Positions 1,512-19,402 of a DNA stretch of 64,000 bases are shown here, piece after piece. The notes under the pieces are model-generated. The model was given only the letters and a program-made list of their open reading frames with translations, did not search any database and was not told the origin of the DNA. Positions within the stretch are counted from its first letter, which is position 1. The number at the start of each line of letters is the position of its first letter. The DNA is from Desulfoscipio gibsoniae DSM 7213 (lineage in GTDB: Bacteria > Bacillota > Desulfotomaculia > Desulfotomaculales > Desulfallaceae): NCBI RefSeq assembly GCF_000233715.2, contig NC_021184.1, positions 3,124,001-3,188,000 of the forward strand. The letters are read 5' to 3'. A program made the position numbers and the translations under genes.

Positions 1512-1695
1512 TTATTGTATCATAATTTTGATACTTATAATAGGTACAAGAATCATGGAGATTTCCAGAGTATAGCTTCCGAAAGTAATAAATTCCTTAT
1601 CCTGGCTGTTAAATATCGACATGAGCTGTTCAGGGAACGCCCTTATGATGATAAATCTCAATATGGTAGCCAGAATGTTTATTATGCTACAATAG
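1512..1695 (-). pseudogene. MATE-family efflux transporter, internal fragment
   Basis: About 60 codons resemble part of a MATE multidrug exporter: a membrane helix, then FPEQLMSIFNSQDKEFITFG, which fits the family pattern P-E-x-L-x-x-L-F near the start of a helix pair. There is no start codon with a ribosome site and no downstream half. It lies between the methyltransferase stop and the antitoxin, so it looks like a deletion scar. The opposite-strand reading frame here is only its shadow. Confidence 0.45.
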
Positions 1696-2319
1696 TTAAC
1701 TAACATCATTAGGCTTTCTTGCAATAATAGTTCTTACAACATGCTTATGAGGGATATTACTTGATTCGCAATCAAATATAAACTCATTAGAATAAAGCAT
1801 TTCCCAATCTTTATAATAGCTTTGAAGTTCTTGTCTTTCATAGAGGTATTCATTTTTACCCCAATCCGGGGCAATCTCAACATCTGGATGTTCGACGAAG
1901 GTACACATTACATTTAACCCACCGGCTACTGTATTATTTTTTATGTTATCAAACTGATGTTTTCTAATTTCTGGTCTAATGTATTGTAAAGTTCCAATTG
2001 AATAAACAATATCAAATTTATCTGGTAAAACAAAATCATTTAAATCTGCTTCCATAATTTTAATAGAAGTATTGTTTTCTTTAGCTAGTTTAATTGCCTT
2101 TTCCAAACCAGCCGGTGCAATTTCAACGGCTAAAACATCGAAACCTTGTTTAGCAAAAAAAATACTGTCCCGACCTTCTCCTGCACCTAAATCAACCAAT
2201 TTTTTATTTGTTTGGTTATCGGGTATAAACTCTAAAACTTTACTTACCAAATCATTAGGTTCTTTTCCCCAATAATACTCTGGTTTTAAATAAATTTCTT
2301 GCAACTGTTCTTTATCCAT
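1696..2319 (-). CDS. SAM-dependent methyltransferase, TehB-like
   Basis: A class I methyltransferase of 207 residues. Motif I (LVDLGAGEGRDSIF, about residues 41-54) binds S-adenosylmethionine, the acidic end of the second strand is VLAVEIAP, and motif IV follows as FDIVYSIGTLQYI. Length and order match the TehB/tellurite-resistance type, whose true substrates are often unknown. Its ATG overlaps the stop of the upstream peptidase gene (TAATG), which suggests translational coupling. A rearranged relic of this gene lies at 40917-41095. Confidence 0.85.
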   Translation of the reverse strand: MDKEQLQEIYLKPEYYWGKEPNDLVSKVLEFIPDNQTNKKLVDLGAGEGRDSIFFAKQGFDVLAVEIAPAGLEKAIKLAKENNTSIKIMEADLNDFVLPDKFDIVYSIGTLQYIRPEIRKHQFDNIKNNTVAGGLNVMCTFVEHPDVEIAPDWGKNEYLYERQELQSYYKDWEMLYSNEFIFDCESSNIPHKHVVRTIIARKPNDVS

Positions 2320-3545
2320 TATTTGCCTCCTGGAACCTCTGTTTTTAAAAGTATATCATCTAAAGTATCAATTACAAATAATTCCCTTTCGGTAACTGAT
2401 AGAACCTCATGCCCGTTTTCTTTAATCAAAACCATATCTTCCAATTTAACCGCACCATATTCGGGATGTGTTAAATGAATTTCTATAGTAATTACAGAAT
2501 TTTTTCTTAATTCAAAGTTTGATTTTGTGAATAATACGGGAGGCTCATTGGCATCTAATCCTATTCCGTGACCAATAAAATTACCCTTTCTTGGGTTTAA
2601 CCCTAAAAAGTAATCATTAACCCCTAAGCGACAAGCACTATTATATGCTATATCAAATAAATCACTACATTTTACCCCTTCTTTTAGAGAAAAAAGGACA
2701 TTATCCGATATTTCCCTGAGGCATGCAAATAACGACCTGACTTCCGGGGTAGGTTCTCCTAAAATATATGTACGTGTCTCATCACAATGATACCCGTGGT
2801 AACATGTAGGTATATCTACTATCACTATATCGCCTTTTTTAATTTTTCTTAAAGACGGCCCGGCAGGTATAGCAGGGCTAAGGCCTATACCGGTAATGGT
2901 ATTGGAAAACCCGCTAACCTTAAAAAGGTTTTCACCGGAGGAAAGTGGACCACGACTTATGTAAAAATCAAAATTTCTCATAGATAAGACCCCTTCATGC
3001 CCGGCTTTTCTATGAGCATATTCTATTTCAGCGGCAAGTTCTAATTCTGTGATTCCTTCAGATAGCACGTCAAAAACTCTTAGGTGTCCGGTTTTCATTA
3101 TGTTACAGGCAGATTTAATTAATTCAATTTCCTCTTCGTCCTTTGTCATCCTTTGTAATAATATCTCTTCAGAAATATTTACAGGTGTATAATCAATGAA
3201 TATTTGACTGATCTTAAAAAATAATTCAGCAGGAATTATATCGGTTTCTAAACCTAATTTCCCCTTTTTTACACCTAATTCTCTTAATTTAGATAAAGCT
3301 TCTTTAAAACTACCAGACGAGATAACTTTGTTTGGGTCTATCCATATTTCACTTAACACAAAATCAAGTGCCCTTCGAACTATAAGATAATAATCATTTG
3401 GTGTAACTACTAGAATACAGGGTTGAGCAGTCCCACAATAGTAAAACACATCCCTTGAATGAATTAATAGGGCCACGTCAATTCCTAACTCGCGAAGTCT
3501 AATTTGGAATTTTTTTAACCTTACGGTTTTATCTACGGTTATCAT
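2319..3545 (-). CDS. M24-family Xaa-Pro peptidase
   Basis: An N-terminal creatinase-like domain is followed by the pita-bread metallopeptidase fold. The five metal ligands can be seen in order: Asp in VIVDIPT, Asp in HCDETRTY, His in FIGHGIGLD, Glu in TIEIHL and Glu in VKLEDMVLI. It should remove N-terminal residues before proline, or act on a related dipeptide, in the cytoplasm. The ATG at 3545 was chosen over the GTG four codons upstream because that GTG is part of the AAGGTGA ribosome site. First gene of an operon with the methyltransferase. Confidence 0.87.
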   Translation of the reverse strand: MITVDKTVRLKKFQIRLRELGIDVALLIHSRDVFYYCGTAQPCILVVTPNDYYLIVRRALDFVLSEIWIDPNKVISSGSFKEALSKLRELGVKKGKLGLETDIIPAELFFKISQIFIDYTPVNISEEILLQRMTKDEEEIELIKSACNIMKTGHLRVFDVLSEGITELELAAEIEYAHRKAGHEGVLSMRNFDFYISRGPLSSGENLFKVSGFSNTITGIGLSPAIPAGPSLRKIKKGDIVIVDIPTCYHGYHCDETRTYILGEPTPEVRSLFACLREISDNVLFSLKEGVKCSDLFDIAYNSACRLGVNDYFLGLNPRKGNFIGHGIGLDANEPPVLFTKSNFELRKNSVITIEIHLTHPEYGAVKLEDMVLIKENGHEVLSVTERELFVIDTLDDILLKTEVPGGK

Positions 3546-3603
3546 ATCTAAGTTCACCTTCTTTAAAGACTTTCTTATTTAGTAGCGTTCACTAATATGA
3601 TCT

Positions 3604-4050
3604 CTAATATCTGGGTAGCTTAACCTGCTCGTAATAATATTCGATTACGCCAATTTCCTTCATGCGGTCATTTATATATCTCCAGCGATCTCTTAAACGG
3701 CCGGTAAACTGCTTTTCACAAGGATATTCATTGCATTGAAAGCAAAAATCAACGTTTTTTTCTTTATGGCATGTTTTGGCGGAACAAGTCGTTATCGGAC
3801 ATTGCACATTTTCACCTCTACATCCGCTACATGAGCCATTGGAAAAAGAGGTTAGAATTGCTTCAAACTGAGAGTAACCGTTAAAAATAGGTTGTTTTTC
3901 TGTTTTCATTTTTGCTACCGGCCTGAAATTGCCGAGTAATTGAATAAGCCGTGAACTTAATTGTTTGATTTCTCCGTGTTCATAATCAGCACATCTCATG
4001 CAATCAAGGCCACAAGGAGCAAGATGCTTCACTACATCATTATATTCCAT
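3604..4050 (-). CDS. DUF3795 cysteine-rich protein
   Basis: A protein of 148 residues with many cysteines in the DUF3795 arrangement: APCGLDCMRCADYEHG near the N-terminus, CSGCRGENVQCPITTC in the middle, then CFQCNEYPCEKQF. The cysteine pairs suggest zinc or Fe-S binding. The family has no settled function. It is a single gene just upstream of the peptidase operon on the same strand. Confidence 0.78.
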   Translation of the reverse strand: MEYNDVVKHLAPCGLDCMRCADYEHGEIKQLSSRLIQLLGNFRPVAKMKTEKQPIFNGYSQFEAILTSFSNGSCSGCRGENVQCPITTCSAKTCHKEKNVDFCFQCNEYPCEKQFTGRLRDRWRYINDRMKEIGVIEYYYEQVKLPRY

Positions 4051-4229
4051 TTTTAAACACCTCTTTTTATAAGAAAATAGAATCGCGCCGGTTGCTGGCT
4101 ATTTTCATCCATAATTGCGTCGCCTCGCGGCATGGGAGTTTAGTAAAATTATATTTATTTATCTGAATATTCCCTATTTGAAACCGTTATTCCTGCTTCA
4201 AGTTAATATTTAATGTACATTACTCCACG

Positions 4230-11839: not shown

Positions 11840-12717
11840 CTGGCTCGGGATAATGAAGAAGACCTGATGGAATACGGGCATCGTGGTATATATGAATTGG
11901 ATGTCATAAATCCTCGCTGGCGGGAAGACCCTTCCTACCTCCTGAATATAATCAGGAGCACCATTGACACCGCTGACATCGGAAGGTTAAGAGCCCGGCA
12001 GAAAGAAAAAACGGATGGAGCCTGGCGGGAAGTTAACCGGAAGTTTCCCTTTTACCGGCGAACGTTGATTAAATACTGGTTAAAACAAGCCCTGAAGAGT
12101 ACGGAACTAAGGGAAATGACCAAGTCTGTGCTGGTTAAGTTTTTTGAGCCCCAGCGCATGGTGTTCCAGGAGGTTGGCCGCCGGTTTGTTGTAAGAGGCA
12201 TACTTGAAGAACAAGGCGACATATATCACTGTACCTGGACTGAACTAGATTCCATTTTGAGGGGGAATTGAGACGGCAGGGGGTTGGCTGCCTTGGTGAC
12301 CGGGCGGAAGGCAAAAATGAAAGAAATGGAAGCTCTTTCCCCCCCGATTTGATTATCGACGATGTGCCCAAGTTCATGGAGTCTGTTACCGCAGGTACGA
12401 GCAATGTTTTGGCGGGTATGGGCGTGGCCGCGGGCAGTGCTTCCGGTTCAGCCAGGCTGATTTATCACCCCGATGAAGGTGGCAAGCTGCAGGGTGGTGA
12501 AGTTTTGGTGGCTCCATCAACCGACCCTGCCTGGACACCTCTGTTTTTAAGGGCCTCTGCCATAGTGATGGAAACGGGAGGATTTATATCCCACGGAGCT
12601 ATTGTGGCAAGGGAATACGGTATTCCAGCGGTGGTGAACGTTCCGGGCGTCATGAAGATAATAAAAGGTGGTCATTTAATTACTGTAGATGGTGATGCTG
12701 GAAAGATATATCTATAA
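11840..12717 (+). pseudogene. PEP synthase-like enzyme, C-terminal remnant
   Basis: The frame starts abruptly with ARDNEEDLMEYGHRGIYELD, a segment between the ATP-grasp and phosphohistidine domains. It runs to an in-frame TGA at 12269-12271, where a Trp is likely in relatives, then shifts frame at a run of seven C (12339-12345). It ends with the swivelling domain, which carries the catalytic His in GGFISHGAIVAREYGIPAVV. About 350 residues of the ATP-grasp region are missing relative to an intact enzyme, so the gene is dead. Confidence 0.8.
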
Positions 12718-12866: not shown

Positions 12867-13466
12867 TTATGCAAATACATCTTTTAACGCCAGCATCAAA
12901 TCACCGAAAATACCGGGTTCAATGTACCCGTTCACATATGTTTTAGGTACCCCGTACTCGTTGCCGCATAATTTATAAACCATAACCTCTTGCTGCTTAT
13001 AATTTACAATCCAATATTCCTTCACACCGTATTTCTCATAGATATGTAACTTTTTTACATAGTCCATGGACGGCCTTGATGGTGATACGATTTCCACTAT
13101 CAGGCCCGGGGCACCAAGACAATATTTTTCTTTAAGTTTGGACTTATCACATACAACAAAAATATCGGGCTGTACAATGGTGGAGGTATCCTCTATATCT
13201 TTTTCACCTTCAGACAACAATACATCGCACGGTGCACTGATAACCTCGCACCCGTTACCTTTCAAGCGATCCGCAAGAATTAGCAGTATATTGCGCAAAA
13301 CCAATTGGTGCCGTACAGTAGGTGCTGGGGTCATTGCAAACAGTTCACCATTTATTATCTCGCAGCTACAATCACCAGGTAATTGTAAATACTCTTTATA
13401 AGTATATCGCATCGTCATTTGACTGGCCGTGGCATTTACCCACCCCCCTTTTGAATATTTTACCAC
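12867..13466 (-). CDS. Uma2-family (DUF820) putative nuclease
   Basis: The restriction-endonuclease-like fold of the Uma2 family can be followed: YTYKEYLQLPGD, EIINGELFAMTPAPTVRH, VQPDIFVVCDK (catalytic Asp), GAPGLIVEIVSPS (Glu) and KEYWIVNYKQQEV. Members are abundant in cyanobacteria and some Firmicutes, with no proven role. The start is uncertain: the GTG at 13466 and two ATGs at codons 17 and 19 are possible, and none has a clear ribosome site. Single gene. Confidence 0.8.
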   Translation of the reverse strand: MVKYSKGGWVNATASQMTMRYTYKEYLQLPGDCSCEIINGELFAMTPAPTVRHQLVLRNILLILADRLKGNGCEVISAPCDVLLSEGEKDIEDTSTIVQPDIFVVCDKSKLKEKYCLGAPGLIVEIVSPSRPSMDYVKKLHIYEKYGVKEYWIVNYKQQEVMVYKLCGNEYGVPKTYVNGYIEPGIFGDLMLALKDVFA

Positions 13467-13532
13467 AATAACGTTTTTTCAAATATACATTCATTCCGCT
13501 AATGCGGCATAGCAAAAAGGATGAAATCAAAA

Positions 13533-13566
13533 GAAATAACGGCCCCCTGTAAAGAGCCGTTATTTC
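13533..13566 (-). terminator. Terminator of the CO dehydrogenase operon
   Basis: Perfect 11-base arms GAAATAACGGC / GCCGTTATTTC with a 12-base loop, 20 bases past the last stop codon of the operon (13587). Confidence 0.7.
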
Positions 13567-13586
13567 TAAATCGGTTATAAAACCAA

Positions 13587-14843
13587 CTATTTAAAATAAA
13601 ATTCCCCATTCTCCTTTTGGGCAAAGAAATCAGCGTAACTAAGCTCAAATATCCGATGCTCCAACCCGGATATGTCTATGCCGTTTTTAATTAGCGCCCC
13701 AAAAAGGCCGGCTCCGCTGATATCCCCCTGCAAGATGGCGCCTTTAATACGCCCGTCCTGTAATAACACCTTTTTATAACCGGCAGTTCCCTGGTCATCC
13801 ACTAGTTCCCGGAAACTTTCGTCAGGCGGGTTTATTGTTCCAAATGATACCGATGGCAAACCGAAAAAGGTCATGGAATTTTGAAAGGCAAAATTACCCT
13901 TCAGGCGAACGGGTTTGCCGGCCATATTGCTGCCGGCTACCCAACCCTGCCGGACCGCCGCCGGCCAGATGGGCGTAGGCATTATCCTGCCGGTAAACGA
14001 CTCCAGGGATTCGCAAACGTCTCCCGCCGCGTATATCCCGGCCACTGAGGTTTGCTGGCGGTCGTTTACCTTAATCCCCCGGCCTGTTTCTACCGGTGTA
14101 TCCTTTAGAAAATCAATGTTGGGCTTGACCCCGGCGGCCACCACCACCATACCGCAAGGCACCGTCCTGCCGCTTTTAAGCTTCAATCCCTGGACGTTAT
14201 CTTGTTCGTCCAGCATTACCGAGGCAACCATGTCGTTAAATATAAATTCCATATTATGCTCCCGGCATAACTGTTCATAACTTCTGGCCGCCCTTATATC
14301 CAACTGCAGAAGCAGAATATGCCCCGCCACTTCCACCACCGTTACCTTTACCCCCCGTTCGGCCAGGGCATAAGCGGCGTCCATGCCTACCAACCCGGCA
14401 CCGATAACAGCCGCGGTGGCGGTCCCGCCGGACAACCGGGTAATATCCCGGGCGTCCTCCAGGTTACGCAGCGCCCGTACCTGCTTGCCGCGGCCCAGGT
14501 TTTCCACCGGCGGCATCACAGAGGAGGCCCCGGTGGCAATGAGCAGCTGGTCATACCGGTGGACTGCTCCATCCGAGAGTTGTACTTCCTTTGAAACAAC
14601 ATCCATTGTAACCGCCTCCCGGCCGGGCAGCCAGCGGATATTGTTTTGTTTAAAAAAATCATCCTCCACGAAACGGGTTTCGGCCTCGGACCTCTGCCCG
14701 CTGATGATATGGTGCAGCATACAGCGGGAATAGATACGCTCATCCTTACTAATGACGGTAATCTTACCACCGGCATCCAGCCGGCGAATCGCCCTGGCGG
14801 CGCTGATACCGGCGGCGCTGGCCCCTAAAATCAAGTATTTCAT
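13587..14843 (-). CDS. FAD/NAD(P)-dependent oxidoreductase of the CO dehydrogenase operon
   Basis: A pyridine-nucleotide-disulfide-type flavoprotein of 418 residues. It has an N-terminal FAD-binding LGASAAGISAARAIR, an NAD-binding VIGAGLVGMDAAYALAERG near 145-163, and the FAD-contacting IYAAGDVCES near 275. It lacks a redox CxxxxC pair and resembles NADH:rubredoxin or ferredoxin reductases. In several acetogens and clostridia a gene of this type follows cooS and cooF and is thought to pass CO-derived electrons to NAD(P). Its ATG overlaps the cooF stop by four bases. Reductase activity is inferred from context. Confidence 0.85.
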   Translation of the reverse strand: MKYLILGASAAGISAARAIRRLDAGGKITVISKDERIYSRCMLHHIISGQRSEAETRFVEDDFFKQNNIRWLPGREAVTMDVVSKEVQLSDGAVHRYDQLLIATGASSVMPPVENLGRGKQVRALRNLEDARDITRLSGGTATAAVIGAGLVGMDAAYALAERGVKVTVVEVAGHILLLQLDIRAARSYEQLCREHNMEFIFNDMVASVMLDEQDNVQGLKLKSGRTVPCGMVVVAAGVKPNIDFLKDTPVETGRGIKVNDRQQTSVAGIYAAGDVCESLESFTGRIMPTPIWPAAVRQGWVAGSNMAGKPVRLKGNFAFQNSMTFFGLPSVSFGTINPPDESFRELVDDQGTAGYKKVLLQDGRIKGAILQGDISGAGLFGALIKNGIDISGLEHRIFELSYADFFAQKENGEFYFK

Positions 14844-15349
14844 CGCATACCCACCTCGCTTTCAGGGGTTTGTTCCTGAGGGATGACTTCTTTCAACCCG
14901 CCCTGACTATCCAGTTCAATCAGGGTTATGGCACCGCTGGGGCAGGCCTGTACACAGCGGGGCACAGGCCTGGTGGCACAAAAATCACACTTAACCGTTG
15001 TTTTGCCCGCCCGTTTATCCGGGCGAATAATCCCATAAGGGCAGGACATCACGCACATCCAGCACCCGGCACATCTAACCGGGTCATGCTCCACGATACC
15101 TGTTTGCGGGTCCTTGCGCAACGCCCCGGACATGCAGGCGGTAGCGCAGGCCGGGTCATCACAGTGCCGGCACAACAGGGGCACCGGCCGGCCATCAACA
15201 CCTGCTTCAACGAAATTCCGGGCTTGGTTGGCCGGGTCTTCCAGGTCCAGGGTTAACACCGATTTAGCTTCGGTATGCTCTGCCATACAGGCCAGCTGGC
15301 AGTTCCGGCAGCCCTGACACAGTTCCCTATTAATCAGTATCCGTCTCAT
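14840..15349 (-). CDS. cooF: CooF-like four-cluster ferredoxin
   Basis: A protein of 169 residues with sixteen cysteines in four [4Fe-4S] groups: Cys11/14/17/21, 60/63/68/72, 93/96/99/103 and 121/124/132/136. This is the HycB/CooF arrangement of polyferredoxin subunits. Lying between cooS (12-base gap) and the flavoprotein (4-base overlap), it should carry electrons from the CO dehydrogenase D-cluster to the oxidoreductase. No signal peptide, so it is cytoplasmic. Confidence 0.88.
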   Translation of the reverse strand: MRRILINRELCQGCRNCQLACMAEHTEAKSVLTLDLEDPANQARNFVEAGVDGRPVPLLCRHCDDPACATACMSGALRKDPQTGIVEHDPVRCAGCWMCVMSCPYGIIRPDKRAGKTTVKCDFCATRPVPRCVQACPSGAITLIELDSQGGLKEVIPQEQTPESEVGMR

Positions 15350-15361
15350 TGCTCATCCCCC

Positions 15362-17242
15362 CTATAACCCCAGGGCTTTTCTTTTTTGTTCAATGATTTC
15401 CGCCAGCTTCTCGGCTGCCGGTACAATTTCTCCCTCCAGAATCACCCTACCGCCGGTGAGCTGTTCCATATCCTCAGTCAACACACGGCTCACCAGTTTA
15501 CTCCCGGTTACAAAGGGCGGTATGGCCAGATGCAGGGGTAAACCCAGGGCCAGCCCGAAGGCTCCATCAGCCAGGGCCTGCTCCTCCAACCACTGGGGTG
15601 CGGACAGCACCAGGGGTAATTGGGGGATGTCAATTTTTAACGCCCGGGCCAGTTCAGTGGCCACTATTTCCAGGCGGCCAATGGCCAAGCAGGGTCCGAA
15701 GTTCAATACCGGGGGAATACCCAGCTTTCGGCATACTCCCTTCAGTCCCTCACCCGCCATCTCCGCGGCAGCCGGGGACATCAGGCCGCAGTTTTCCAAA
15801 CCGCCGCTGGTGCAGCCCGCGGAAAGGACGATAATATCACGTTTAATCAGTTCCTTGGTCAGCTCCACGGTAAATACATCATGCCCCTTGGCAGTAAGAT
15901 TGGAGCAGCCCACCACGGCGGCAACCCCTTTAATGGTACCAGCGACTATTAAATCTATCAGGGGCTTAAAGGTACCGCCCAGGAATTTCTGCAGTGATTT
16001 TTCACTGACGCCGGTAAGCGCGTCATCGTAACCATGGACCGGCACATCCACCTCCACCTTACCCCGCCGGTTATTATAGCTATCCAAAGCGGCCTGCATA
16101 ACCTTTTGGGCCAGCGCATCGCCCGCCTGAATATCAAACCCGATATATTCGGCGTTGGCCTTTTTAGCCACATCATCCAGGCATAACTGCCTCACCATAA
16201 ACTGTTCGCAGAGCGGTTCCAGCCCGGGCACGGTACAATTAAATTCGGAAACCAGCAGGTCAATACCCCCGGTGGCCAGCAACGCCTCGCTGGTAAAATT
16301 GTTTCCGGCATGGCCGGCAAAAACATTGGCGCAATGTGCCCCCCGCAGCTGCAAGTCCTGGCCTACGCAGGTGCATCCGACAATTTTAAATCCCCTGGCC
16401 CCGGCCTGCTCGGCTATGGCGGAAGCACCGGGAGCGGCTAAACGCTCCTGCAAAACTCCAATTAAAGAGTGCTGGTGGCCGGTAACCATAATATTAATAT
16501 AGTCCGGATCGACTACGGAAAAGCCCACTTTAGCTATCCTGATTTCCGGTGCACCCAGCATTATATCATTTAGATAGTTAGTTAGGGTCAAACCGTATAA
16601 GCCGGTAGCAATACCCAGCTTCAGGGCGTGCAGCAGCATATCTACGGGGTCGCTGGACAGGTTGGTGCTGGTTTTTACAATGGCATCGAAAACTTCGGAC
16701 TTAGCACCGCCGGGAATGATACCCAACTCTCTCCAGCGCTTCAGCCTGGGTTTATAAGCCAGATTACCAACCTGGGTCATCTCCCGGCCCCTGGGCCGGT
16801 ACAGGTCTTCCAACACCAGATTAGCAACCGCAACAGCCTGACTGGCCGGGTCACTTTCCTCAACCCCCATCAGTTCGGCCAGTTCATTCAATAGTTCCGG
16901 TTCCTTAATCGTTAGCCCGGTGCTTCCAAGGCCAACCGCTTTAAGGTTGGAAGCAGCGTTCTCCACTATATGCAAGTAACAGGCCGCCCCGGCAGCCACC
17001 GCCCGCAAGAAGTTGCGGGCCACAATGGTATCAGCGCTGGCCCCGCAGACACCTTTGGGGCTTTGCGGGGTAATACGGCAGGGACCGTTGGAACACAACC
17101 GGCAGCATACCCCCTGCATGCCGAACCCGCATTTGATCGCCTGGTCGGGTACGCGGTGGAATGAAGTCTTCACACCGGTCTTACTACGCATAAAGTCAAT
17201 TAGCTTAACGTCCGCTGAATCACACATTTTCATTACATACAA
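15362..17242 (-). CDS. cooS: Ni-Fe carbon monoxide dehydrogenase catalytic subunit, divergent form
   Basis: A CooS-family protein of 626 residues. B- and D-cluster cysteines are present at 38, 46, 47, 50, 55 and 66. C-cluster ligands can be matched in GHQHSL (His), GCTCVG, FNCTVP, VVGCSN, SAGCTSG and NFGPCL. Two usual features are missing. The histidine run of the proton path (AHSDHGR in CODH-II) is replaced by ACYLHIV at residues 87-93. The active-site Lys of S-E-K-A is Gln in EEQALADG. The cluster is therefore probably assembled, but chemistry may differ from standard CO oxidation. AGGAGG precedes two possible starts (MYVMKM). First structural gene of a three-gene operon. Confidence 0.87.
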   Translation of the reverse strand: MYVMKMCDSADVKLIDFMRSKTGVKTSFHRVPDQAIKCGFGMQGVCCRLCSNGPCRITPQSPKGVCGASADTIVARNFLRAVAAGAACYLHIVENAASNLKAVGLGSTGLTIKEPELLNELAELMGVEESDPASQAVAVANLVLEDLYRPRGREMTQVGNLAYKPRLKRWRELGIIPGGAKSEVFDAIVKTSTNLSSDPVDMLLHALKLGIATGLYGLTLTNYLNDIMLGAPEIRIAKVGFSVVDPDYINIMVTGHQHSLIGVLQERLAAPGASAIAEQAGARGFKIVGCTCVGQDLQLRGAHCANVFAGHAGNNFTSEALLATGGIDLLVSEFNCTVPGLEPLCEQFMVRQLCLDDVAKKANAEYIGFDIQAGDALAQKVMQAALDSYNNRRGKVEVDVPVHGYDDALTGVSEKSLQKFLGGTFKPLIDLIVAGTIKGVAAVVGCSNLTAKGHDVFTVELTKELIKRDIIVLSAGCTSGGLENCGLMSPAAAEMAGEGLKGVCRKLGIPPVLNFGPCLAIGRLEIVATELARALKIDIPQLPLVLSAPQWLEEQALADGAFGLALGLPLHLAIPPFVTGSKLVSRVLTEDMEQLTGGRVILEGEIVPAAEKLAEIIEQKRKALGL

Positions 17243-17256
17243 CCTCCTACATTGAT

Positions 17257-17281
17257 ATACTATACTTAATTTGTATACTTT
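17257..17281. promoter_or_regulatory. Rrf2-operator-like palindrome 1, in the cooS leader
   Basis: ATACTATAC-N7-GTATACTTT: one perfect half and one degenerate half of the 9-7-9 palindrome shared with 17370 and 17893. It lies 15 bases before the cooS start, where bound protein could block transcription or translation. Confidence 0.5.
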
Positions 17282-17369: not shown

Positions 17370-17394
17370 AAAGTATACTATTATAGTACACTTA
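17370..17394. promoter_or_regulatory. Rrf2-operator-like palindrome 2, upstream of cooS
   Basis: AAAGTATAC-N7-GTACACTTA, a near-perfect inverted repeat. It has the same arms and spacing as the site before the Rrf2 gene, with the left and right variants exchanged. It lies 128 bases upstream of the cooS start. Confidence 0.6.
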
Positions 17395-17465: not shown

Positions 17466-17873
17466 TTATCGCTTGCTTAGAGTATCAAAGTCATAGCGCT
17501 CCAATTCCCGGTTGATGGTCTGTTGAATTGAATAAAGGGCTTTATGAATGGAACATTTAGCGGTATTTCGCTTATTGCACTCCTCGGGAGCAATTAAACA
17601 CCTGTTAATGCGCACCGGTCCCTCCACCGCTTCAACAACGTCCTTCAGGGTAATTTCCCCCGGCACTTTAGCCAGCGCATAGCCACCGCCAACTCCCCGG
17701 TAGGATTCAACAATCCCGGCTTGGGTTAACAGGCGGAGTATCTTGAGCATGAAGCGTATGGGGATTTTCTCGTTTTCGGCTATAACCCTGGCCTCTATCA
17801 CCTGCCCTTTAGGTAAACTGGACAAATATAAAACCGCCCGGAAAGCATAGTCTGTTGCTTGGTTTAGCCTCAT
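17466..17873 (-). CDS. Rrf2-family Fe-S transcriptional regulator
   Basis: A protein of 135 residues with a winged helix at the N-terminus (MRLNQATDYAFRAVLYLSSL, then VIAENEKIPIRFMLKIL) and a cysteine loop, Cys at RCLIAP, EECNKR and AKCSIH, with C-x7-C-x7-C spacing. IscR, NsrR and RirA relatives bind an Fe-S cluster through such a loop and sense redox state, NO or iron. It lies directly upstream of cooS on the same strand, flanked by three copies of one palindrome, so it probably controls both itself and the CO dehydrogenase operon. Confidence 0.87.
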   Translation of the reverse strand: MRLNQATDYAFRAVLYLSSLPKGQVIEARVIAENEKIPIRFMLKILRLLTQAGIVESYRGVGGGYALAKVPGEITLKDVVEAVEGPVRINRCLIAPEECNKRNTAKCSIHKALYSIQQTINRELERYDFDTLSKR

Positions 17874-17892: not shown

Positions 17893-17917
17893 AAAGTGTA
17901 CATATTTAGTATACTTT
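17893..17917. promoter_or_regulatory. Rrf2-operator-like palindrome 3, upstream of the Rrf2 gene
   Basis: AAAGTGTAC-N7-GTATACTTT, an inverted repeat with one mismatch, ending 20 bases before the Rrf2 start. It suggests autoregulation by the Rrf2 protein. Confidence 0.6.
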
Positions 17918-18000
17918 TTAAATACTATAACCTTCCTGAAAGCAAATGTCAAGTAGTTTTGAAATTTTTTCTACGGAATCCCGCAGTAAATTTATAGCAT

Positions 18001-18552: not shown

Positions 18553-18956
18553 CTAATTTTTTACTCTACCTGGCAACTGTTATTATTTGAGGTACAACTT
18601 GGTTGGCAATAAATTTACAATTAAGTCAAGTGGAACCGGTTTTATCTGTTAGTTATAGGTTTGGTTTGGCAGCAATTGTCTTTATTTTATTTTGCCTAAT
18701 CCGCAAGATATCTCTACGCTTATCAATGAAAAAGCATTTTATCATAGCCTTACAAGGTGTTTTATTATATGGTTTTAGTTATTACTTAAACTACATTGCT
18801 AGTCAATATATTGTTAGTGGATTGGTTGCTGTAATTTTCTCTACCATTATGATAATGAATATATTGAATCTTCCTTTTCTTGGGTCAAAATGCAAGGTGG
18901 CTTACTTGTTTTGGTGGTGTTTTAGGTCTTGTCGGAATCTGCATGATTTTTTGGCA
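18549..18956 (+). pseudogene. EamA-family transporter, N-terminal half
   Basis: The frame begins MTNFLLYLATVII and meets a TGA at 18588 where relatives have Trp (the next residues are GTTWLAINLQ). It continues through three or four membrane helices (GLVAVIFSTIMIMNI) and then shifts frame near 18885; TCFGGVLGLVGICMIFW continues in the new frame. It ends at 18955, joined directly to an antisense kinase fragment through the shared bases CAATTTC. Confidence 0.65.
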
Positions 18957-19402
18957 ATTTCATCACAAATGGACAGACCAATTCCGCTGCCCGCTGACGA
19001 TGTTCCCTTGTATACGTTCCTGACGACCTCGTGTATTACGGTGAGGGATGTTATAAAGCAAACTGCTCCCACCACCTGGTCACCGGATTTAAGGGGATAG
19101 GCTACAGACATGGCCGGTTCGCCGGTATCAGGCAGGTTGCCCTGCCAATGGCCCAATTCTCCCTTCCGGGCTCTTTGAATATCGTCAAAAGTTAGTTTTT
19201 CCACAGCCGGTGCTCCCTGAGAGTCGGCCAGCACCATTCCCCCGGCGTTTATAATTTGCACCTGTGCCGCAGTGGTTGAGGAAAAACTCTCCAAGAGAGA
19301 CCCGGCTTCCCTTCCCAGATCTTGATCGGACAAATAACGGCTGTAAAAACTGCCTGCCACCTCTGCTTGTTTTTTTAGAACATCCTGCACATTATCGTAA
19401 TA
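18957..19402 (-). pseudogene. Sensor histidine kinase, deleted copy of the gene at 37064
   Basis: The sensor part (QDVLKKQAEVAGSFYSRYLS and following) and the final ATP-binding motif (YKGTSSAGSGIGLSICDEI) match the intact kinase at 37064-38443. About 270 residues between them (second membrane helix, HAMP, phospho-accepting His and N-box) are deleted. The frame across the joint is open, but the product could not act as a kinase. Confidence 0.8.

Follow-up and report, generated by a model that had tools for sequence, protein, structure and literature searches.

The window analysed here is a stretch of 64,000 nucleotides from Desulfoscipio gibsoniae DSM 7213 (contig NC_021184.1, positions 3,124,001 to 3,188,000), and the gene under study is cooS (15362..17242, minus strand), encoding the catalytic subunit of a carbon monoxide dehydrogenase (CODH). 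There is hardly any doubt about its identity as a clade C enzyme, like structural group C-2, encoded in an Rrf2-CooS-CooF-FNOR operon, FNOR being an FAD/NAD(P) oxidoreductase. With regard to its function, the chances are about even that CooS interconverts CO and CO2 slowly, under redox regulation, and exchanges electrons with NAD(P)H. A first-pass annotation, made from the sequence alone, had described a divergent CODH devoid of the usual acid-base residues and feeding electrons to CooF and a flavoprotein, and had suspected slow CO chemistry or another reaction. It was right in that description, with the electron route graded here as probable, and right in its suspicion. The idea of a new or singular enzyme was not borne out, since the changes define clade C and the locus is already listed in the D. 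gibsoniae genome paper (PMC4148979).

The cooS gene and its placement in clade C

The reading frame of cooS (Desgi_3080, judging by gene content) is intact over 626 codons, the likelier start being the ATG at 17233, 8 nt past an AGGAGGT, which gives a product of 623 amino acids. CooS matches TIGR01702 (E-value 1e-234, 780 bits, cut-off 478) and Pfam PF03063 (2.9e-151), and scores merely 21 bits with the model of the hybrid cluster protein (HCP), whose cut-off is 361. Rfam gave no match within the window at gathering scores.

Placement in a CODH phylogeny, recommended by the first-pass annotation as a check, puts CooS inside clade C. The alignment comprised 213 rows, these being 209 non-identical CooS sequences from the fetched loci (215 before the removal of six identical ones; seven open reading frame (ORF) pieces were also dropped) and four PDB chains. 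In the FastTree phylogeny, CooS falls in a group of 88 of the 213 rows (node support 0.84), including that of Clostridium ljungdahlii (L019), whose CooF/FNOR-linked gene was labelled clade C from the text of Inoue 2019 (PMC6344411). A 62-row IQ-TREE phylogeny recovers the same clade C group (16 rows) with 100% SH-aLRT on a long stem of 1.22, and a further branch with 100% SH-aLRT joins clade C to the clade D side.

The 88 clade C rows, so defined by topology, all carry Tyr93, His95, Cys295, Asn332, Glu561, Glu562 and Gln563, together with Ile (28 rows) or Val (60 rows) at position 96; the numbering is that of CODH-II, derived from CooS-V and from the names of PDB entries (H93A, K563A). All six C-cluster ligands are invariant in this clade, and a type II D-cluster is recognised by a regular expression in 88/88 rows. 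The 63 rows of the clade D side have Tyr (61) or Asn (2) at position 93, Asn332, Glu561 and Lys563, with Glu (48) or Cys (15) at position 295, and the 62 rows that belong to neither clade C nor clade D show His93, His96, Gln332 and Lys563, Glu561 being present in 0/62.

It has to be said that 79 of the 88 clade C rows came from a search with patterns including APQWLEEQ and that all 79 contain this string, so that Glu-Glu-Gln at 561-563 was partly selected in them and proves little there; the remaining nine are the window protein and eight found with the family model. A set free of this bias was obtained from a protein search of 398 genomes without APQWLEEQ-type patterns, in which 18 full-length proteins, that of the window included, share at least 64% identity. 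The other 17 (five of which also belong to the APQWLEEQ-pattern set) have, without exception, the full series Tyr, His, Ile/Val, Asn, His, Cys, Asn, Cys, Cys, Cys, Cys, Glu, Glu, Gln. Being common to the 88 clade rows and to 17/17 matches gathered without such patterns, the altered residues are not due to chance. A search for early-branching members of clade C in which the Tyr and Gln could be checked, such as CooS of T. kivui (Thermoanaerobacter kivui), found none.

CooS is 84% identical to its counterpart in Desulfallas sp., 68% to that of C. ljungdahlii and at least 64% to the other clade matches, and the identities of the full-length CooS matches in the 398 genomes show a gap from 64% to 45%. 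Of the 398 genomes sampled from the phylum, 20 have a match of at least 64%, counting the genome of the window itself, two of these matches being partial. In a genome of the same genus (G393), nothing matches the window CooS at 1e-100, and the locus is thus patchy even among close relatives.

According to Table 2 of Inoue 2019 (PMC6344411), all clade C groups have a complete C-cluster with His replaced by Tyr and Lys replaced by Gln. CooS is, then, a standard clade C member, and its altered site is a published clade signature, not a one-off. The candidate explanation of a new kind of CODH was rejected because the clade shares the changes and that table already holds them. Compared with the clade C Ni-CODHs at large (groups C-1 to C-4, among them cooS1 of Clostridium autoethanogenum and the C. 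ljungdahlii enzyme), CooS is alike in its C-cluster ligands, in both replacements and in its type II D-cluster; they likewise have CooF and FNOR downstream and, in many cases, Rrf2 upstream, and nothing that defines the clade separates CooS from them. The C. ljungdahlii gene, unlike cooS of the window, has no Rrf2 found beside it.

Some other rows of the alignment deserve mention. Four CODHs (L216-L219) have Asp in place of the C-cluster Cys333 and Asn at position 561, and resemble the Asp-bearing clade B groups in the text of Inoue 2019; one of them, L216, forms a long branch in the 62-row tree. The protein of L165 (genome G046) matches CooS-V of Carboxydothermus hydrogenoformans except at its ends, and G046 is probably that species.

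Active-site residues and cluster ligands

The string ACYLHIV, reported in the first-pass annotation, is present in CooS (residues 87-93; codons at 16964..16984, minus strand). Its pairing with AHSDHGR of CODH-II held as to the loss of the histidine path, and its register was off by one residue against 6t7j, in which GAACYLHIVEN of CooS faces GAAAHSDHARD. Thus, His93 is replaced by Tyr, Asp95 by His and His96 by Ile, with Asn at position 99; judged from these residues, the histidine path is missing more fully than in the earlier register, and a His stands at position 95 instead. Gln in place of Lys563, the other reported change, was confirmed in the context WLEEQA (15575..15592, minus strand), which also holds an HCP-type Glu at position 561. 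In no alignment made did a shift to nearby positions restore the His run or the Lys. In the 626-residue frame, Tyr93 corresponds to Tyr89, Gln563 to Gln555, and position 561, the equivalent of Glu556 of CooS-V, to Glu553. The CooS-V residue numbers in the alignment are consistent with those in the text of Jeoung 2022, and the CODH of Rhodospirillum rubrum (1jqk) carries the usual AHSEHGRH and SEKA.

The B-, C- and D-cluster ligands could be matched, as had been claimed, the B-cluster cysteines by eye. All six C-cluster ligands (H261, C295, C333, C446, C476 and C526) align; the kept Cys295 is residue 292 (codon at 16367..16369, minus strand), and the Asn332-Cys333 codons lie at 16235..16240 on the same strand, Asn occurring here as in HCP and CooS-V, and Gln in canonical CODHs. 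The D-cluster of CooS is type II, its C-x7-CC falling within the C-x7-13-CC given for groups C-1, C-2 and C-4. The N-terminal motif of group C-1 consists of two to four extra Cys, and CooS has one (C7) before the D-cluster Cys38, which makes it C-2-like.

The AlphaFold model of the 623-residue product (mean pLDDT 86.8, pTM 0.90; pLDDT below 50 at residues 35-53, around the B and D clusters) has the canonical 6t7j as its top VIA-align match (Z 56.6, root mean square deviation (rmsd) 2.1, 609 aligned) and CooS-V (7b7q) as its top Foldseek match. The model confirms the CODH fold, which does not decide between CO/CO2 and HCP-like chemistry. The canonical clade E/F CODHs (6t7j, 6vwy, 1jqk, 1mjg) share the fold, the B-cluster and the six C-cluster ligands with CooS, but differ from it in His93, His96, Gln332 and Lys563 and in having no Glu at position 561.

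CooS-V of C. hydrogenoformans (group D-1), also called CODH-V, had been offered as an example of an altered active site. Its fold is like that of CooS (Z 53.9, rmsd 2.1, 616 aligned, 33% identity), but it has Glu at position 295, a type III D-cluster, Lys563 and His96, and lies in another supported group of the tree. A CooS-V type enzyme was rejected for CooS, which retains Cys295 (Cys292 in the frame) and has a type II D-cluster; the CooS-V-like protein of this host is another one, L001. The Glu556-type ligand of CooS-V is nonetheless present in CooS, as it is in 63/63 rows of the D side and in the 17/17 clade C matches gathered without the APQWLEEQ pattern, against 0/62 outside clades C and D.

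Clade C and CooS-V share Tyr93, Asn332 and Glu561. In CooS-V, Glu556, the residue at position 561 here, is an iron ligand, and Asn337 contacts a cluster water. The HCP of the host reads TTNC and WFEQKA at the Asn332-Cys333 and Glu561 positions, and by eye its AAYAYH lies opposite the region of Tyr93. HCP is thus like CooS in its Asn-Cys and in Glu at 561, and the fold of CooS is related to class III HCP (7e0l; Z 28.9, rmsd 3.0, 422 aligned), but HCP has Glu where CooS keeps Cys295. By these alignments, clade C is an intermediate, which combines HCP-type Tyr93, Asn332 and Glu561 with the CODH Cys295 and with Ile/Val96 and Gln563 of its own. The text of Inoue 2019 (PMC6344411) notes the Glu for group D-1, and Figure 2 of that paper may also flag clade C; in the parts of Bohm 2026, Inoue 2019 and Jeoung 2022 available, the HCP-type residues are not stated for clade C.

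The operon and its genomic context

All four genes lie on the minus strand, with rrf2 upstream of cooS, and cooF and the FNOR gene downstream. CooF-like ferredoxin (14840..15349; 169 amino acids; Desgi_3079 by gene content) matches Pfam Fer4_11 and others and shows four Cys4 motifs by eye. FNOR (13587..14843; 418 amino acids; Desgi_3078 by gene content) matches Pfam Pyr_redox_2 (2.4e-56), has PadH as its best NCBIfam model (1e-83, below the PadH cut-off), and its gene overlaps cooF by 4 nt. A terminator-like hairpin of 16 pairs lies past FNOR (13532..13567, minus strand), such hairpins not being enriched region-wide (4 found, 5.8 in shuffles). The operon is adjoined by an orphan phosphoenolpyruvate-utiliser mobile domain (12268-12717, plus strand) and by a Uma2-family ORF (12867-13466, minus strand), and at 18603-19390 there are overlapping ORFs on opposite strands, by eye remnants of a drug/metabolite transporter and a sensor kinase.

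The D. gibsoniae genome paper (PMC4148979) describes five cooS genes, three beside acetyl-CoA synthase (ACS) genes, plus Desgi_2753 and Desgi_3080, and lists genes 3081, 3079 and 3078 as partners of the latter, described as transcriptional regulator, ferredoxin and 'nitrite reductase', respectively. The window locus would be Desgi_3078-3081, gene content linking tags and genes. Our genome search also found five full CooS in the host. L001, a gene separate from the window cooS, is the one nearest CooS-V (943 bits to 7b7q), L002 and L004 are nearest the Moorella thermoacetica CODH, and L003 groups with these two in the tree only. A separate HCP is also encoded.

The Rrf2-CooS-CooF-FNOR unit is already published. 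Geelhoed 2016 (PMC4703632) names a CooS-CooF-FNOR cluster of Dsm. gibsoniae, with an Rrf2 label in a figure legend; Inoue 2019 (PMC6344411) ties groups C-1 and C-2 to CooF and FNOR; Matson 2011 (PMC3082573), using clade letters of its own, describes Rrf2 before several such cooS genes; and Bohm 2026 (PMC13056359) reports that 72% of clade C operons include FeS partners, 71% oxidoreductases and 58% transcription regulators. Among the 81 of our 88 clade C loci with enough flank (the other seven were left out of these counts), CooF and FNOR accompany CooS in 58 and Rrf2 lies upstream in 51, the arrangements being Rrf2 with CooF and FNOR (29), CooF and FNOR (29), Rrf2 and CooS only (22), and none (1). 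In eight loci of the Rrf2 and CooS only kind, no shared partner was seen by eye among the downstream ORFs listed.

The Rrf2 regulator and its predicted operator

The regulator (17466..17873, minus strand; Desgi_3081 by gene content) is an Rrf2-family repressor of 135 amino acids (Pfam Rrf2 1.4e-34; TIGR00738 above its cut-off), with C92, C99, C107 and H110 as candidate ligands, the last two in a Cys-xx-His. The three Cys are kept in 56/56 rows and the His in 54/56 (these rows represent 55 loci, the window being counted twice). The four residues correspond to the IscR ligand set. Its score with the NCBIfam IscR model, 62.3 bits, does not reach the cut-off of 207.55, and the protein is IscR-like only.

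A predicted rrf2 promoter, found by consensus match (TTGACA-17-TATAGT, 11/12; 17924..17952, minus strand), is followed right after its -10 box by a putative Rrf2 operator, O1 (17894..17916; one mismatch). A motif scan predicts a second one, O2, between rrf2 and cooS (17371..17393; no mismatch), and a weaker third palindrome near the cooS ribosome site (17258..17280; three mismatches). The palindromes at O1 and O2 read AAGTATACTAAATATGTACACTT and AAGTGTACTATAATAGTATACTT. With 0.09 sites of this pattern expected in the window, three are present. Genome-wide, O1 and O2 are the only sites with up to one mismatch; with up to three, there are nine (three at the locus), against four for the reversed control.

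A relaxed form of the operator is found in 51 of 54 Rrf2-linked clade C loci (42 in both stretches; L080, L082 and L183 have none) and in 8 of 32 clade C loci without Rrf2, against 1/54 and 0/32 for the reversed control, the motif having been relaxed after matches were seen in the same loci, which makes these counts and those in ten other genomes partly circular, and related loci not being independent. The stretches scanned were the 200 bases before rrf2 and the rrf2-cooS gap or, for loci lacking Rrf2, 490 bases around the start of cooS; two of the 88 clade C loci, without 700 bases upstream, were left out. Elsewhere, the operator appears in 0/9 clade D loci with Rrf2 and, in loci without Rrf2, in 1/52 of clade D and 1/58 of the others. 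In a motif-free test, which is not circular, inverted repeats whose spacers are odd (3-11) were present in 11-23 of the 54 stretches upstream of rrf2 and in 11-27 of 54 rrf2-cooS gaps, against about 2.3-3.8 in shuffles made in two-base blocks; even spacers were raised too in the gap (6-12). A wide Rrf2 regulon was tried and dropped, the sums in ten other genomes at two mismatches being 51 for the motif and 50 for the reversed control (8 and 7 sites in C. ljungdahlii). Among the 15 papers listed of 113 that matched a literature search, no title or opening of an abstract names an operator for a CODH-linked Rrf2.

The eight clade C loci that keep the operator before cooS with no adjacent Rrf2 detected (L008, L010, L014, L016, L019, L025, L076 and L181) include those of C. 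ljungdahlii and Clostridium ragsdalei, which suggests an unlinked or undetected rrf2. The nine clade D loci with Rrf2 upstream and no clade C operator (L149, L153, L156, L157, L168, L169, L171, L175 and L221) probably have an Rrf2 of different specificity. In the genome of L023, Orenia metallireducens, an extra one-mismatch operator outside the coo locus (L265, about 1892-1914) is probably due to chance, and sits inside a long ORF (1566-4145), by eye arabinofuranosidase-like.

Proposed function and alternatives

If the residues are a guide, CooS would assemble a Ni,Fe C-cluster on all six canonical ligands. CO/CO2 interconversion would be slow because the His93/Lys563 acid-base pair and the His96/His99 relay are replaced by Tyr93, Gln563, Ile/Val96 and Asn/Thr99. 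Electrons would move through clusters B and D to CooF and, via FNOR, to or from NAD(P)H. The operon may thus provide a redox valve of low capacity or a means of scavenging CO, and not the main CO enzyme, a role presumably held by the three ACS-linked paralogues. An iron-sulfur (Fe-S) form of Rrf2 would repress the operon and itself via the palindromic operators, and the operon would be made upon loss or alteration of the Rrf2 cluster, with redox, nitric oxide (NO) or Fe-S stress as the putative signal.

Data from two other bacteria bear on this proposal. T. kivui CooSF1, assigned to clade C by Bohm 2026 (PMC13056359), showed 13.9 U/mg with viologen and 0.5 with ferredoxin, and a Km for CO of 5 uM, the values for AcsAB being 213.9 and 111.5 (PMC8683389). 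According to the same report, T. kivui cannot grow on CO without its CooS. In C. autoethanogenum, in which cooS1 lies upstream of a ferredoxin-like gene and an oxidoreductase, an acsA mutant that retained both cooS1 and cooS2 produced 2.03 mmol of CO on fructose plus CO, and the wild type consumed 8.52; a cooS1 mutant had a longer lag and a lower yield on CO, and no lag and double density on H2/CO2 (PMC4895105). These data can be read as slow, perhaps CO2-reducing, NAD(P)H-coupled CODH chemistry that is controlled by redox state. In the view of Bohm 2026, enzymes of clades C and D are more likely to have little activity or none; the paper stops short of a conclusion on that of clade C, and calls the one isolated clade C enzyme, T. 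kivui CODH-I, untypical.

Several points weigh against a slow CO/CO2 enzyme as the reading of CooS. The T. kivui CooS is, per Bohm 2026, early-branching in clade C and comes from a CO-adapted strain. The C. autoethanogenum cooS1, with no CO oxidation in vivo, fits no CO chemistry as well as slow chemistry. The clade C sample is not random, consisting mostly of the 80 nearest relatives of the window protein. The 22 of 81 loci with Rrf2 and CooS and neither CooF nor FNOR show that the electron route is not universal. Moreover, the HCP-type Tyr93, Asn332 and Glu561 would favour an HCP-like reductase.

In this last, possible but clearly less probable explanation, a chimeric site with an Fe-S-O hybrid-type or switchable cluster would reduce a small stress-related molecule (NO, hydroxylamine or a reactive oxygen product), with electrons passing from NAD(P)H through FNOR and CooF, and with Rrf2 in control as a stress repressor. 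It draws on Asn332 and Glu561, which match the host HCP and, with Tyr93, match CooS-V, and which are absent in the 62 rows outside clades C and D, as well as on the grouping of clade C with clade D (100% SH-aLRT), whose member CooS-V is without CO activity and has a hybrid cluster; relatives of Rrf2 include NO and Fe-S sensors (PMC5015018), and Matson 2011 (PMC3082573) likens the clade C partners to NarB/NarC of nitrate reductase. However, Cys295, whose change to Glu is probably a prerequisite for the hybrid cluster according to the text of Jeoung 2022, is kept in all clade rows; the host has a separate HCP, T. kivui CooSF1 oxidises CO (PMC8683389), and even CooS-V reduces hydroxylamine poorly, with no NO reduction detected.

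It is unlikely that CooS is a sensor or electron store, binding CO or tracking redox with negligible turnover and tuning the ferredoxin/NAD(P)H balance or expression. Bohm 2026 (PMC13056359) does propose that enzymes of clades C and D sense redox state or act in regulation, and C. autoethanogenum does not need cooS1 for autotrophy, but the growth effects of the cooS1 mutation are clear (PMC4895105), the NAD(P)H oxidoreductase and ferredoxin of the operon suggest electron flow, and a separate regulator, probably an Fe-S protein, is already there. An ordinary efficient CODH with a proton relay via Tyr93, His95 and Gln563 is quite improbable: the kept metal ligands, the invariance of His95 in the clade and the requirement for CooS in T. 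kivui on CO (PMC8683389) agree with it, but the T. kivui activity reported there is 15 to 231 times below that of AcsAB, and the C. autoethanogenum acsA mutant made no net use of CO (PMC4895105). A decaying gene without function, for which the loss of catalytic residues and nothing else speaks, was rejected as scarcely credible, given the intact frame, the identity with Desulfallas sp. and the other clade matches, and the fixation of the altered residues across the clade.

Beyond a slow CO/CO2 enzyme, a speculative but conceivable view is that clade C is a CODH/HCP chimera. Its cluster may alternate between a C-cluster-like and a hybrid-like form, and NAD(P)H may serve it to reduce a stress molecule, the operon being the sole target of a self-controlling Fe-S Rrf2. 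Clade C CODHs are widespread and, according to Bohm 2026 (PMC13056359), one member has been isolated. The HCP-type residues and the predicted operator pose two questions about the clade, namely which type of cluster it carries and which signal lifts the repressor.

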